Source: Mesorhizobium sp. 65-26 (GTDB taxonomy: Bacteria > Pseudomonadota > Alphaproteobacteria > Rhizobiales > Rhizobiaceae). Taken from it: DNA of 64,000 bases. Both the position numbers and the translations under genes were made by a program. Of the stretch, positions 27,567 to 33,660 are shown in pieces. The number at the start of each line of letters is the position of its first letter. Positions within the stretch are counted from its first letter, which is position 1. The stretch covers positions 819,569-883,568 of the forward strand of contig MKVL01000010.1 in the NCBI GenBank assembly GCA_001899205.1, given 5' to 3'. The notes below the pieces were generated by a model. That model was not told the DNA's origin. It saw only the letters and a list, made by a program, of their open reading frames with translations, and did no database searches.

Positions 27567-28895
27567 ATGCGTTTGTCGCGCTATTTCCTGCCCATCCTCA
27601 AAGAAAATCCGCGCGAGGCCGAGATCGTCTCGCACCGGTTGATGCTGCGCGCCGGCATGATCCGCCAGCAGGGGCAGGGCAGCTTTTCGTGGCTGCCACT
27701 CGGCAAGCGGGTGCTGGACAAGGTCTGCCAGATCATTCGCGAGGAGCAGAACCGGGCCGGCGCGCTGGAAATCCTGATGCCGACGCTGCAGTCGGCCGAG
27801 CTGTGGCGCGAAAGCGGACGCTACGACGACTACGGCAAGGAGATGCTGCGCATCAAGGACCGCCAGGAGCGCGACCTGCTTTACGGACCGACCAATGAGG
27901 AAATGGTCACCGAGATCTTCCGCTCCTATGTGAAGTCCTACAAGGATCTCCCGCTCAACCTCTACCATATCCAGTGGAAGTTCCGCGACGAGGTGCGCCC
28001 GCGTTTCGGCGTCATGCGCTCGCGCGAGTTCCTGATGAAAGACGCCTATTCCTTCGACCTCGATTACGAAGGCGCGAGAGCCGCCTATAACCGGATGTTC
28101 GTGTCCTACCTAAGGACGTTCACGCGCATGGGGCTGCAGGCGATCCCGATGCGCGCCGACACCGGCCCGATCGGCGGCGACCTCAGCCACGAGTTCATCA
28201 TCCTGGCGGAGACCGGCGAGAGCCAGGTGTTCTGCGACCGCGAGTACCTTTCGCTCGATGTGCCGGGCGAGAAGACGAACTTCTCCGACGACCATGAGAT
28301 CGCGGATATCGTCAAGGCGTGGACGACACCCTATGCCGCCACCGACGAGATGCATGACGAAGGAGCCTGGTCGAAGGTTGCCGAAGGCGAACGCCTGTCG
28401 GCGCGCGGCATCGAAGTCGGCCATATCTTCCATTTCGGCGAGAAATACTCGAAGCCGATGAACGCCAAGGTGACCGGGCCGGACGGCAAGGAGCATTTCG
28501 TCTCCGGCGGGTCCTACGGCATCGGCCCCTCGCGGCTGATCGCGGCCATCATCGAGGCGAGCCATGACGAAAACGGCATCATCTGGCCGGAAGCGGTGGC
28601 GCCGTTCGACATCGGCCTCATCAACATGAAGGCCGGCGACGCCGAGTGCGATCGCGTCTGCGAAGAGCTCTACGCCGCGCTCGAGGGCGCCGGTAAGGAC
28701 GTGCTCTACGACGACACCGACCAGCGCCCGGGCGGCAAGTTCGCCACCGCCGACCTGATCGGCCTGCCGCTGCAGGTGATCGTCGGACCGCGCGGCGTGG
28801 CCGCGGGCGAGGTCGAGATCAAGAACCGCAGGACCGGTGAGCGCGAGACGCTGCCGATCGCGCAGGCAAAAGCGCGCCTGGGTATCGCCGCATGA
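27567..28895 (+). CDS. proS: Prolyl-tRNA synthetase (short, no editing domain)
   Basis: Class II synthetase that charges tRNA-Pro. It has 442 residues, much shorter than the roughly 570 of E. coli, because the INS editing domain between motifs 2 and 3 is absent; this is the normal alphaproteobacterial form. Visible motifs are [15 protein letters not shown] (motif 1 region), [17 protein letters not shown] (motif 2) and [15 protein letters not shown] (motif 3), followed by the anticodon-binding domain from about 340 ([13 protein letters not shown]). The lolC-type gene overlaps its stop by four bases. Confidence 0.96.
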
Positions 28896-30178
28896 GCGAA
28901 GCCGCAGCAGCAAGGCCTTCGGCCGCCGGACCCTTTTCGGTGTTCGAGCGCATGGTTGCATGGCGCTATCTGCGGTCACGGCGCAAGGAGACGGTGATCT
29001 CGGTCATCGCCTCCATCTCCTTCCTCGGCATCATGCTGGGCGTAGCCACGCTGATCGTGGTGATGGCCGTGATGAACGGCTTTCGCGCCGAGCTTCTGAC
29101 GCGCATCCTCGGCGTCAACGGCCACCTGATCGTGCAGCCGCTGGATTCGCCGCTTGAGGACTATGCCCAGGTGGCGAGCCGCATCAACGGCGTGCCTGGC
29201 GTCAAATACGCCATCCCGCTGATCGACGGCCAGGTGCTGGCGCAGGGCAATATCGGCGGTGGGACCGGGGCGCTGGTGCGCGGCATACGCGGCGACGACC
29301 TCGGCAAGATCGACATCGTCGCCAAGAACATCAAGCAGGGATCGCTCGCCGATTTCGACGCCGGCGAGGGGGTGGCGATCGGCAAGCGCATGGCCGACAA
29401 CCTCGGCCTGACGCTGGGCGACACCATCACGCTGATCTCGCCCGACGGCGATGTCACGCCGCTCGGCACCACGCCGCGCATGAAGGGCTATCCGATCAAG
29501 GCGATCTTCGAGGTCGGCATGTCGGAATATGACAGCTCGATCGTCTACATGCCGTTCTCGGAGGCGCAGCTCTACTTCAATATGGACGGGCGCGCGCAGA
29601 CCATCGAGATCTATGTCGACAATCCCGACAATGTCGACGCGCTGAAACCGAAGGTGGAGGAGGCTGCGCAGCGGCCGATCGACCTCGTCGATTGGCGCCA
29701 GCGTAACGAGACCTTCTTCTCGGCCCTGCAGGTCGAGCGCAACGTCATGTTCATGATCCTGACGCTGATCGTGCTGGTGGCGGCGCTCAACATCATCTCC
29801 GGCCTCGTGATGCTGGTGAAGGACAAGGGGCACGACATCGCCATCCTGCGCACCATGGGCGCGTCGCGAGGGGCAATCCTGCGCATCTTCCTGATGACGG
29901 GCGCGGCGATCGGCGTCACCGGCACGATCGCCGGCGTGCTGCTGGGTGTCGTGATCTGCCTAAACATCGAATCGATCCGGCAGTTCTTCTCCTGGATGAC
30001 GGGCAAGGTGCTGTTCAATCCCGAGCTCTATTTCCTGAGCCAACTGCCGGCGAAGATGGATCCGCGCGAGACTATCTACGTCATCATCATGGCGCTGGGG
30101 CTGTCCTTCCTGGCAACGGTGTTTCCGGCATGGCGGGCCGCCCGTCTCGATCCGGTCGAAGCGTTGAGGTACGAGTGA
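28892..30178 (+). CDS. lolC: Lipoprotein-releasing ABC transporter permease LolC/LolE
   Basis: Inner-membrane permease of the LolCDE machine, which extracts lipoproteins for transport to the outer membrane. It has 428 residues: first transmembrane helix at about 35-60 ([20 protein letters not shown]), a large periplasmic domain with the family segment [20 protein letters not shown], then three helices from about 290 to the end ([20 protein letters not shown]). Alphaproteobacteria use a single LolC/E hybrid (LolF). Overlaps proS and lolD, so the three genes are coupled. Confidence 0.93.
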
Positions 30179-30858
30179 TGGCCGAGGCCATTATCGAGCT
30201 GAAGAGCGTAGAGCGGCACTATGTGCAGGGGCCGCGCAAGCTCACCATCCTGAATGGCGCCGATTTCTCGCTGCGGCGCGGCGAGATGGTGGCTCTAGTG
30301 GCGCCGTCGGGCACCGGCAAGTCGACGCTGCTGCACACGGCTGGTCTTCTGGAGCGCCCGGACGCCGGCGACGTGATCCTCGCCGGGCGAGCCTGCGGCC
30401 GGCTTTCCGACGACGAGCGCACCTCGATCCGCCGCAACGATGTTGGCTTCGTCTACCAGTTCCATCACCTGCTGCCTGAATTCTCGGCGCTGGAAAACAT
30501 CATGATGCCGCAGCTCATCAAGGGGCTGCCGCGCAAGGAAGCCTCCGAACGCGCCGCGCAACTGCTGGACTACATGCAGATCGGCAAGCGTGCCCAGCAT
30601 CGGCCTTCGGAACTCTCGGGCGGCGAGCAGCAGCGCGTGGCGATCGCGCGCGCCGTCGCCAACGCGCCGCTGGTGCTGCTGGCCGACGAGCCGACAGGCA
30701 ATCTCGACCCGGTGACGGCTTCCTATGTGTTCGAGGCCCTGGAGGCCCTGGTCAGGCAGTCCGGCCTTGCAGCCCTGATCGCCACCCACAATCACGAACT
30801 CGCCTCGCGCATGGACCGCCGCGTCACGCTTGCCGAAGGCAAGGTGGTACCGCTGTAG
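30178..30858 (+). CDS. lolD: Lipoprotein-releasing ABC transporter ATPase LolD
   Basis: Cytoplasmic ATPase partner of the preceding permease (226 residues). Walker A is APSGTGKST near residue 43, then the Q-loop [13 protein letters not shown], the signature [14 protein letters not shown], Walker [13 protein letters not shown], and the H-loop THNHELA. The FHHLLPEF and NIMMPQLI segments are typical of LolD. The ATG at 30178 overlaps the permease stop. Confidence 0.95.
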
Positions 30859-30916: not shown

Positions 30917-31891
30917 TCAGCGGATCACGGGCTCGCCATGGAAACGGCGGCGCGAGGGCCGCGATACGCCAAAGCCGACTTCCATCATCAGGCGCGGCGT
31001 ATGCGCCGGCACTGTGCCCATATGGAAGCCGAACGGATCCTCGACGAAGCCGAGGCCCGCCTTGCCTGTCAGCGTGACCGGGCTTTGTGGACCATAGACA
31101 TTCAGCACATCCTCGGCCGGATGGCCGACCAGCAACGTCAGCTGATGCCTGAGCGCGCGGCGCCTTTGGCTGCCCTTGACATAGACATGCGGGCCGGTGC
31201 CCGCGTCGACCGGAACGAGGTAGAAAAAGAACTTCAACATCCGCCAGTCGTCGAGATCGAAATGATACTTGCCGAGCGAGGCGAGGTTCTTGTCCGCATC
31301 CGAGGCCTTGCCAGTCGGAAAGCTCCACCAGACGCGCGTGGTGATCAGCTTGGCCTGACCGCCGAGATAGTGCCGGGCGACGTCGAGAAGCAGCGGATCC
31401 TTCTGGACTGCAAGGGCGGCCGGGCATTCCAGGATGCGCTCGAAATAGTGGCCGCTGAGCAGCGAGCGGCCGAACTGCCGTTCCGCCTCGGTATGCTCAC
31501 CCGGCATGAATTCGAGACGCCTGTCGAAATTGCCGAAACACGGCGTGCGCTGGGCGAAGGCGGCGATTTCCTCGTGGATCGCCGGTGGCAACAGGAAGCC
31601 TGAGAACAGTCCATCCGAGCGGAGGGCTTCGACCACCGTCTCGGGGTCGGTGCCATCGAACATGGTTCTTCCCGGACTGTCGAATGAGCGGGCTCGCTCG
31701 GCGCCAAGCCAGTGCAAGCGGCGCCCCGGCATGGTGCGTGCGAGAATAAACATCGGTAGCCAGGCCGGGTTTTCGCGCAGGTCCTTCAGATATGTCGGAA
31801 CGCGGACCGCGATGCGCCTGAGCAGGCTGCCGCTACGGGCGACGGCCTCAAGACTGGTCGCATCGGAATTGTCTTTGGTGGCAAGCTTCAT
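30917..31891 (-). CDS. Phytanoyl-CoA dioxygenase (PhyH)-like Fe(II)/2-oxoglutarate enzyme
   Basis: A 324-residue protein convergent with lolD. The central YHFDLDDWRMLKFFFYLVPV segment gives the HxD iron motif of the double-stranded beta-helix dioxygenases, and VYVKGSQRRR follows as in PhyH proteins. The distal FHMGTVPAHTPRLMMEVGFG supplies the second histidine and the arginine for 2-oxoglutarate. The N-terminal 110 residues lack known motifs. Substrate unknown; similar proteins often modify lipids or secondary metabolites. The gene stands alone. Confidence 0.75.
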   Translation of the reverse strand: MKLATKDNSDATSLEAVARSGSLLRRIAVRVPTYLKDLRENPAWLPMFILARTMPGRRLHWLGAERARSFDSPGRTMFDGTDPETVVEALRSDGLFSGFLLPPAIHEEIAAFAQRTPCFGNFDRRLEFMPGEHTEAERQFGRSLLSGHYFERILECPAALAVQKDPLLLDVARHYLGGQAKLITTRVWWSFPTGKASDADKNLASLGKYHFDLDDWRMLKFFFYLVPVDAGTGPHVYVKGSQRRRALRHQLTLLVGHPAEDVLNVYGPQSPVTLTGKAGLGFVEDPFGFHMGTVPAHTPRLMMEVGFGVSRPSRRRFHGEPVIR

Positions 31892-32146
31892 CGGGTCCTC
31901 GCAAGCGTTGGCGTTCGACGAAGCGACAGCCGCTCACCCAATCCCGATTTCCCGCATGAACGATGCTAGTACGAGCAGGCCTTGTGTGCAACGCACAATG
32001 CCCTCGACGGCGGGGGATCAGCTCTCCAGCGAACTCCGACTGGCATCGGGGCAAAGCGACGACACGTACATGAACGGTTGTCTGCCGAGTTTAACCCTTC
32101 GCTAACCGTGCCGATTTTCGCGCCGATCCCCTTATCGCTTTGCGCG
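31892..32146. other. Spacer between dioxygenase gene and SOS micropeptide
   Basis: About 255 bp with no credible gene. It serves as the upstream region for the dioxygenase (minus strand) and leads into the LexA-controlled promoter on the plus strand. Confidence 0.5.
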
Positions 32147-32181
32147 TTGACATTTGAACAAAATTAGAACAAATTGAGAAC
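32147..32181 (+). promoter_or_regulatory. Promoter with two overlapping LexA (SOS) boxes
   Basis: A perfect -35 TTGACA occupies 32147-32152. Over the spacer and -10 region run two alphaproteobacterial LexA boxes, GAAC-N7-GAAC, at 32156-32170 and 32167-32181, sharing the middle GAAC. The -10 at 17-bp spacing (CAAATT) is weak. LexA bound here would block RNA polymerase, so the downstream micropeptide should be DNA-damage-induced. Confidence 0.8.
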
Positions 32182-32203
32182 ATACTAACAACAGGAGAGA
32201 GTT

Positions 32204-32290
32204 ATGACCGATTTCGCTCACGATGTCATCTCGCTGGTGTGCATGAGCACGTTTCTGGTTTCGATGGCGATCTGGATCGGCGCGATGTGA
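32204..32290 (+). CDS. 28-residue SOS-controlled membrane micropeptide
   Basis: The frame reads MTDFAHDVISLVCMST... and ends AIWIGAM, with a stop at 32288-32290. A strong ribosome-binding site (AGGAGAG) lies four bases ahead of the ATG. Residues 8-28 form one hydrophobic helix with a short acidic cytosolic N-terminus. The only regulatory input visible is the double LexA box 22 bp upstream. In Caulobacter the LexA-regulated SidA is a 29-residue inner-membrane peptide that blocks division. Size, topology and regulation match that class, although I cannot confirm sequence homology. Too short for ordinary gene callers. Confidence 0.75.
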   Translation: MTDFAHDVISLVCMSTFLVSMAIWIGAM

Positions 32291-32295
32291 TGAGA

Positions 32296-32313
32296 GGCGG
32301 CGCCAGCGCCGCC
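32296..32313 (+). terminator. GC-rich hairpin behind the micropeptide
   Basis: Seven-bp perfect stem GGCGGCG/CGCCGCC with a CCAG loop, five bases after the micropeptide stop. Only a weak TT follows, so termination would be partial and read-through into the protease gene is possible. Confidence 0.45.
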
Positions 32314-32403
32314 CTTGGAATTCCGCGGCAAGCGGGGCTTGCGCCGTTAAGCCTTTCTTGCCGCCCCCGGCGCTAGGGTCTCCTTCGGACAGGAGTGCGC
32401 CGG

Positions 32404-33660
32404 ATGTCTCCCTTCGTGATCGCCGTGCTCGTGGCGAGCAATCTCGGGCTGATTTTCCTGCTGATGAGAGTGCCGCTTGGCCTGCGCACGGTGCGGCTCA
32501 GCCGGGTCGTTGCCGCCGACAGGCAGCGCCTTTGGCAGGCCTTGTGGCCGCTGGGAAAGGATGCCGGCTGGTCGGGTGAGATCCTCGATGCGCGCGCCCT
32601 GGACGAGGCGGGGCTGGTGGCGGTGACGCTGTCATGGGAAGGCCGCGACGGGCGGCCGATCGAGCGCAAGGCGATACTTGGGGATGTCGTGCCGGGGCGC
32701 AGCTTTTCCATGCGGGTGCTTGAGGATACCGCGCTCGACGTGTCCTTCTGGGCGGACTATCGCGAAACGGTGGAGCTCGCCGACGAAGTTGCCGGTGGCA
32801 CGCGCGTGACGCTTGGCCGCACCGACCGCTACCGCGGCCTCGCCTTCCTGATCTACCGTTATTTCGCCACGCGCCGCGAACTGGCCAAGCTCCAGCACTG
32901 GGTGGTCAGCGGCCGGTACAGCAGGGGTGGCTGGTTCGAGCATCCGCTCAGTCAGATCGGCTTCGCCGTACTCTCGGCGCTCATTCTGTGGCCGTTCTTC
33001 GGGCTCAATTCCGGCGGCCTGGCCCTAGCGGCCATCCTGACGTCGGCGGTCGCCCTGCACGAACTCGGTCACATGGCCGCCTTCCGCCTGATGGGGCATA
33101 ACAGGGCGCGCATGATCTTCATTCCTTTGCTTGGCGGCATCGCCATCGGCGGGCGCCCCTATGACAGCCGCTTCGAGGTCGCGTTCGTGGCGCTGATGGG
33201 GGCGGGCTTTTCCGCGTTCCTCGTGCCGCCGCTGATCGCCGCAAGCGCCCTTGCCGGCGGGGAAGGGCATCGGCTGGCGGCTGCTCTGCTCGCGACGCTG
33301 GCGGGCTTCGTGGCCCTGTTCAACATCGCCAACCTGATGCCGGTCTGGAAATTCGATGGCGGCCAGGTGCTGCGGCAGATCTGCCCCGGTCCGGTCGTGC
33401 TGGCGCTGGCGTCCTTCTCGCTGCTGTCCGGGCTGCTCGCGCTCGGTTGGCGCGCCGGCTTCTCCTCGGGCTTCCTGCTGGCGGCGGGCGCGATCTTCGC
33501 CGTGCTGAGCCTGCTCACCGTCGGCAGCGGCGTTAAGCCGCGCCATGAACTGAAGCCGATCGGCGCCGTGGACCGGCTGGCCATCGCTGCGGCGCTGCTG
33601 GCGGTGTTCGCTATCCATGGCTACGGGGTGCTCTGGGCCTCCGCGCGCCTGGTGGCTTGA
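32404..33660 (+). CDS. Membrane M50-type metalloprotease with N-terminal SRPBCC-like domain
   Basis: A 418-residue protein. After one N-terminal membrane helix, residues about 30-165 look like a START/SRPBCC domain (ADRQRLWQALWPLGKDAGWS through FATRRELAKLQHW). The second half is polytopic: a helix carries HELGH (HExxH zinc motif) near residue 220, and a later helix carries NLMPVWKFDGGQVL, the NxxPxxxxDGG motif of site-2 proteases. This combination supports intramembrane proteolysis, with an unknown substrate. AGGAG lies eight bases ahead of the ATG at 32404. It is 113 bp downstream of the SOS micropeptide on the same strand and ends facing lipB. Confidence 0.8.
   Translation: MSPFVIAVLVASNLGLIFLLMRVPLGLRTVRLSRVVAADRQRLWQALWPLGKDAGWSGEILDARALDEAGLVAVTLSWEGRDGRPIERKAILGDVVPGRSFSMRVLEDTALDVSFWADYRETVELADEVAGGTRVTLGRTDRYRGLAFLIYRYFATRRELAKLQHWVVSGRYSRGGWFEHPLSQIGFAVLSALILWPFFGLNSGGLALAAILTSAVALHELGHMAAFRLMGHNRARMIFIPLLGGIAIGGRPYDSRFEVAFVALMGAGFSAFLVPPLIAASALAGGEGHRLAAALLATLAGFVALFNIANLMPVWKFDGGQVLRQICPGPVVLALASFSLLSGLLALGWRAGFSSGFLLAAGAIFAVLSLLTVGSGVKPRHELKPIGAVDRLAIAAALLAVFAIHGYGVLWASARLVA

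Follow-up and report, generated by a model that had tools for sequence, protein, structure and literature searches.

A LexA-boxed 28-residue membrane peptide of Mesorhizobium and its family as a probable divergent orthologue of the Caulobacter division inhibitor SidA

SidA, the SOS division inhibitor of Caulobacter, is a 29-residue inner-membrane peptide that interacts with FtsW and FtsN; its effect is suppressed by FtsW or FtsI mutations, and it is named as one of the genes that are not related to those in other species (PMC4211646). The gene is CCNA_02004 (PMC10769358). Low-confidence AlphaFold 3 models put SidA on TM7 of FtsW; the same source describes YneA as reported to interact with FtsW, and SosA and ChiZ as modelled on it (PMC13396833). 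For rhizobia, Agrobacterium and Brucella, the titles and abstract openings listed by searches of the open-licence literature included no report of SidA or of another SOS division inhibitor.

The window analyzed here is a stretch of 64,000 nucleotides from Mesorhizobium sp. 65-26. The earlier note on this DNA had pointed out a 28-codon frame encoding a single transmembrane helix, and that description held. The frame (32204..32290, plus strand) runs from an ATG at 32204 to a TGA at 32288-32290, its product is MTDFAHDVISLVCMSTFLVSMAIWIGAM, 28 aa, and the top Kyte-Doolittle mean over 19 residues, 2.1, starts at residue 8. The AGGAGAG motif noted before the frame is at 32193..32199 on the same strand, with 4 bases between its end and the ATG, and was taken as the ribosome-binding site. 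A pattern scan for GAAC-N7-GAAC placed LexA box 1, GAACAAAATTAGAAC, at 32156..32170 and LexA box 2, GAACAAATTGAGAAC, at 32167..32181, both on the plus strand. These boxes had been said to overlap each other and a TTGACA promoter. They do overlap each other, with one GAAC in common, but not the hexamer. TTGACA (32147..32152, plus strand), the presumed -35 element given its sequence and a spacing kept in relatives, starts 9 nt before box 1, and 3 bases separate the two. The LexA-type boxes thus lie just inside the presumed promoter rather than on the hexamer. A simple sigma-70 scan for a full promoter found 0, with 0.2 expected, and no hairpin terminator could be established downstream of the stop (z averaged -0.78 over 65 loci, with 23% below -2).

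Taken only as sequence matches, the boxes give little evidence of operators. The window holds 4 matches to GAAC-N7-GAAC compared to 1.63 expected, a number reached by 11 of 100 shuffles, and the genome holds 162 compared to 117 for the reversed pattern. However, the boxes at the peptide gene are more than chance because they are conserved in homologous loci. An exact box was present within 80 nt upstream in 58 of the 69 loci with enough upstream DNA (L053, at a contig end, was left out), while four scrambled patterns and the opposite-strand pattern each gave 0/69. Two boxes were found within that distance in 18/69 loci. The first box most commonly started at -48 from the first codon (23 of the 58 boxed loci), and TTGAC or TTGCA began exactly 9 nt ahead of the first box, wherever it lay, in 37 of the 58. 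A lexA gene in the window's genome scored 175 bits, above the cut-off, and a box of this type, GAACACAACTGGAAC, lies 89 nt upstream of its start. GAAC-N7-GAAC boxes are therefore plausible operators in this genome.

The 11 loci without a box include L050, L057, L066, L072 and L073, which lie in a different, partly prophage-like context; some of these five copies have a longer C-terminus. An exonuclease VIII relative (phrog_412) was seen near L050 and a phrog_2045 protein near L057, and the context of L066, L072 and L073 was judged prophage-like by eye. Phages may use such box-less copies to block division, which would be in keeping with the SidA reading. Another copy, L075, has no exact box within 80 nt, and its upstream neighbor resembles ssb (by eye), not lolD.

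The earlier note had asked, among other things, whether the frame and boxes would be conserved in orthologous loci, beyond close strains, and with nonsynonymous change below synonymous change. All of this was seen. A tblastn search with the window peptide matched 84 of 151 genomes of the window's family, presumably Rhizobiaceae in the broad sense (E<=10), and the 70 loci read were the best 70 of 99 matches, the 29 weakest being left out. With profile A1, built from 40 members, the peptide was found in 298 of 394 family genomes and 96 of 109 genera at E<=0.01, the other 96 genomes having no match at that threshold. Among 384 other genomes of the class, A1 gave 0 matches at E<=0.01 and nothing below E 0.0141. 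The class-level matches at E 0.014-1 were rejected as noise; those listed were partial or broken, many of them inside long frames. A tblastn search with the peptide of L012 gave no match in phage or plasmid records.

The aligned frame is exactly 28 codons from first codon to stop in 64/69 loci; L025 has GTT and L038 has TTG as the aligned first codon. Among the 63 loci whose 28-aa frame begins with M, pN was 0.124 and pS 0.458 over 131 close pairs, values that are descriptive only since the pairs share ancestry, as is the pN/pS of 0.47 over all pairs. Differences per codon position were 0.40/0.16/0.56. With L010, a same-genus relative, identity is 0.83 within the frame and 0.29 immediately downstream of it, and reaches 95% over the bases from -22 to -1. 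All 40 profile members carry D or E at residue 7, and 37/40 do so at position 3; F17 never varies, and 35/40 have W24. The 28-codon frame is a real gene whose codons look to be under purifying selection at the amino-acid level.

The window shows the gene order lolC/E, lolD, minus-strand ORF, peptide, M50 peptidase, lipB. The lolC/E permease (28892..30178, plus strand) scored 506.5 bits with NCBIfam TIGR02212, over the cut-off, and lolD (30175..30858, plus strand, start approximate) scored 257 bits with TIGR02211 (E 1.2e-76), under the cut-off of 307.75. Directly downstream of the peptide, an M50 peptidase-like protein is encoded at 32395-33660 on the plus strand (PF02163, 35.8 bits). The 324-codon ORF between lolD and the peptide (30917-31891, minus strand, from the ORF list) had no Pfam or NCBIfam match at E<=1. 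It was within 1.5 kb of the peptide in 1/70 loci, the window's own.

Across the 70 family loci, lolD is the conserved upstream neighbor (within 1.5 kb in 46). Downstream, dnaE follows on the same strand within 1.5 kb in 16, lipB lies on the minus strand in 19 and the M50 peptidase was found in 9; 11 loci matched none of six reference neighbor proteins. What lies downstream (lipB, the M50 peptidase or other genes) differs between loci and points to no functional link. In 10/70 loci, lolC/E, lolD, the peptide and dnaE are all together on one strand, which is likely the ancestral order. The window genome's dnaE is on another contig (G000:C42), so the peptide and its boxes persist without dnaE as a neighbor. 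Ribosome profiling in S. meliloti detected a translated small ORF, sORF25, in the dnaE1 5'-UTR (PMC10117765). Going by position alone, sORF25 is probably the S. meliloti copy of the peptide gene. Another S. meliloti candidate for the orthologue, SEP6 (<30 aa, one predicted helix), was set aside because sORF25 fits by position.

The same position is occupied by sidA in Caulobacter. Six Caulobacter genomes were chosen by the S-layer protein RsaA, dnaE was looked for in five, and in all five dnaE was immediately preceded by a small ORF for a single-helix peptide, together with a box. This ORF encodes 29 aa, identical or nearly so, in four genomes and 30 aa in the fifth. At L205 the peptide is SidA (NF033228, 74 bits, cut-off 35), and the other neighbor is an inosine-uridine nucleoside hydrolase (PF01156), also seen by look in L206, L207 and L208 and absent in L204. 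The identity of the L205 ORF fits the published tags because the hydrolase CCNA_02005 (PMC3667746) is numbered next to sidA, CCNA_02004; the Caulobacter dnaE is CC1926 (PMC1839093).

In the order to which Caulobacter belongs, the position of sidA is known for part of the genomes: tblastn with one SidA peptide matched 25 of 100 at E<=1. This search yielded 27 rows, and 26 loci were examined after L245, inside a 1048-codon frame, was left out. In 20 of the 26, dnaE is downstream, with an exact box within 150 nt in 17 of these 20. The full arrangement of lolC/E-lolD-sidA-dnaE was found in 4/20 (L225, L228, L229 and L230; L228 without an exact box). The new observation is a gene position shared with Caulobacter SidA before dnaE. 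One genome of this order (G799) also has a second, longer SidA-like copy, L244, of 37 aa and without a box.

The class was then covered through dnaE itself, by reading 70 dnaE upstream regions, one from the window's own genome, out of 267 genomes with a match. GAAC-N7-GAAC occurred within 500 nt upstream of dnaE in 14/70 regions; of the controls, the opposite-strand pattern occurred in 5/70, and the six scrambled patterns in none, except for one that occurred in a single region. An ATG frame of 20-50 aa coding for a hydrophobic helix followed the box at 30-75 nt in 12/70 regions, a combination counted 0 times with all seven control patterns. A thirteenth boxed junction peptide, L173, has a GTG start. 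The thirteen span seven families (f2, f7, f12, f44, f84, f123 and f128), and f2 belongs to the window's order. At L129, L134, L168, L174, L178, L182, L183 and L193, the boxed peptide before dnaE has a single helix and a length of about 32-47 aa, which varies with the start chosen. Each junction peptide could be the SOS division inhibitor of its own lineage. The fourteenth boxed region is that of the window genome's own dnaE (L128), where a GAAC-N7-GAAC with a G+C-rich spacer lies 97 nt before the first conserved motif, and no helix-coding small ORF was found behind it; this match is perhaps chance.

Position was then complemented by comparing profiles. A SidA profile of 19 rows was made without the duplicates L222 and L237, the longer box-less L244 and the chance frames L234, L238, L241, L242 and L243. 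L208 was added, L219 is the same gene as L206, L230 (in-register GTC) was given M, and four rows of greater length were trimmed to 29 aa. The A1 and SidA profiles scored best at register 0, start to start and without gaps. Column permutation at register 0 gave p values of 0.00025 (all columns) and 0.0012 and 0.0008 (within blocks), which weaken to 0.004, 0.012 and 0.009 when the best of 13 offsets is allowed. As a single comparison, hhalign in local mode aligned residues 1-19 (Prob 81, E 1.2e-5), and its global mode gave Prob 3.3 and E 0.0044. The similarity is confined to about residues 1-18, with columns 19 and 22-25 scoring negative.

Searches of small ORFs pointed the same way for the two main groups. 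Among 655 small ORFs of loci from Caulobacter's order, 19 of the 20 best rows with the A1 HMM were SidA frames, alternative starts counted (best E 7.8e-4), and the fourth row, L234, was a chance frame. Among 2113 small ORFs of the family loci, the 25 best rows with the SidA HMM were all family frames, again with alternative starts counted (best E 0.009). At the dnaE junctions, the best four of 1579 small ORFs with A1 were boxed peptides (L129 twice, L182 and L168) at E 0.05-0.5, and the boxed peptides reached by the SidA HMM were only L129 and L193 (rows 1, 3 and 6 of the best 12). Scores against shuffles separated the two main sets with AUC 0.87-0.98; for the junction peptides of other families the separation was weak (0.78 and 0.67).

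Single peptides carried much less signal. In the window, the peptide fell outside the best eight of 631 small ORFs with the SidA HMM, and against its own shuffles it had p 0.22, the related L012 peptide having p 0.37. In a first test with the A1 profile, three Caulobacter peptides had p 0.027, 0.038 and 0.26, and single peptides of other families had p 0.003-0.27. The curated SidA model NF033228 had no match to the window peptide at E<=1, and in its genome gave two partial sub-cut-off matches elsewhere, the best with 18.3 bits (cut-off 35). Homology to SidA would thus be visible only at the family level, where members are not independent.

Common descent with SidA is nevertheless supported because both peptides occur in lolC/E-lolD-X-dnaE on one strand, mostly boxed, and their profiles align without gaps. 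Orthology is probable when position, control, size and family-level similarity are combined; a pairwise score does not carry it. The earlier proposal of a SidA-type candidate, drawn from size, topology and control, gained support from synteny and the gapless profile alignment, and what had been an analogy can now probably be read as orthology. We accordingly list 32204..32290 as a candidate SidA-type 28-aa single-helix membrane peptide, by frame conservation, boxes, synteny and profile comparison.

Our main reading, to which we give a probability of about 0.7, is that the window gene is a divergent SidA orthologue, a LexA-repressed inner-membrane peptide that blocks late division via FtsW after DNA damage. 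DNA damage would activate RecA, LexA would be cleaved and the peptide promoter would be freed. The peptide would then enter the inner membrane and hold the FtsW/FtsI/FtsN septal wall-synthesis complex inactive, its helix most likely packing against FtsW, a target transferred from the published SidA work. With a late division step blocked, the cell would not split before repair. For this peptide we infer LexA binding, damage induction, membrane insertion, the division block and the FtsW target from SidA. The shared N-terminal half (acidic 7, S/A 10, L/F 11, S/A 13 and F17) could be a common contact surface, and the diverged C-terminal half and acidic N-terminus may mean that partner fit or topology has changed.

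An unlikely alternative, though the best placed of the others, is that the gene encodes an SOS-induced, TisB- or DinQ-like peptide that damages the membrane and lowers membrane potential and growth, with a cis antisense RNA as antitoxin. Size, the single helix and the LexA-type boxes would fit, and DinQ is an SOS-regulated toxic single-transmembrane peptide (PMC3567139). However, any K or R occurs in only 3/40 members, so that the peptide has hardly any basic residues, and conserved synteny with family-level SidA similarity favors a checkpoint gene. An Rfam search of both strands of 31880-32480 gave no match at E<=1, leaving a known RNA element there unsupported, though an undescribed RNA would escape such a search.

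It is improbable that the peptide, while sitting at the sidA locus, regulates another membrane protein under SOS control, for example an envelope protease, a transporter or a respiratory complex. The C-terminal half and charges are unlike SidA, so the partner surface may have changed, but the peptide has kept the N-terminal half, the gene position, the control and the size. We consider it slightly less probable again that the short ORF is mainly a leader, translated to adjust the gene after it (originally dnaE) as part of SOS control. The same-strand dnaE of the 16/70 loci would suit a leader, and the translated sORF25 was discussed together with possible uORFs (PMC10117765). Yet opposite-strand lipB is downstream in 19/70 loci, purifying selection on amino acids along the frame is unexpected of a mere leader, and the boxes and peptide are kept in the window genome with dnaE elsewhere, on which ground a dnaE leader is rejected as the main role. 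A chance ORF beside chance boxes, compatible with the unremarkable box count of the window alone, is ruled out by conservation in 96/109 genera with 0/384 for other genomes of the class at E<=0.01, codon-level constraint, and boxes in 58/69 loci with 0 for the controls.

If the divergent-SidA reading is true, a missing checkpoint gene is named for the window's family, and this checkpoint gene is old and conserved by position. It would also offer a large natural alignment for reading residues that may touch FtsW. A wider picture, which we hold to be somewhat less likely than not, is that of one ancient, vertically inherited SidA-type checkpoint that already lay between lolD and dnaE in a common ancestor of several orders. 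Release of LexA would stop septation and, where the ancestral order remains, transcription could run on into dnaE, so that the replicative polymerase rises too; prophages would have picked up copies as division blockers.

Compared to known systems, the peptide resembles TisB and DinQ of E. coli as an SOS-regulated small membrane peptide, but these are toxins with antisense control, and the window locus had no Rfam match. DidA of Caulobacter is likewise a small DNA-damage-induced membrane division inhibitor, but has 71 aa, is SOS-independent (DriD) and binds FtsN (PMC4211646). YneA (B. subtilis), SosA (S. aureus) and ChiZ (M. tuberculosis) are DNA-damage-induced small membrane division inhibitors too; YneA and ChiZ differ in having a LysM domain (PMC13396833), and no homology with the peptide is claimed. 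SidA (NF033228; CCNA_02004) is the closest. The window peptide is unrecognized by the SidA model, its C-terminal half is different and dnaE is displaced in the window. In every one of the 19 rows of the SidA profile, position 3 is R, K, H or Q and position 6 is R, and the N-terminus, basic in SidA, is acidic in the window's family, so topology may differ. In common are 28 compared to 29 residues, one hydrophobic helix, a LexA box just upstream, the lolC/E-lolD-X-dnaE position in part of both groups and the gapless similarity over about residues 1-18. By the curated SidA model the peptide is not a member, and we class it as a divergent variant with, most likely, the same mode of action as SidA.
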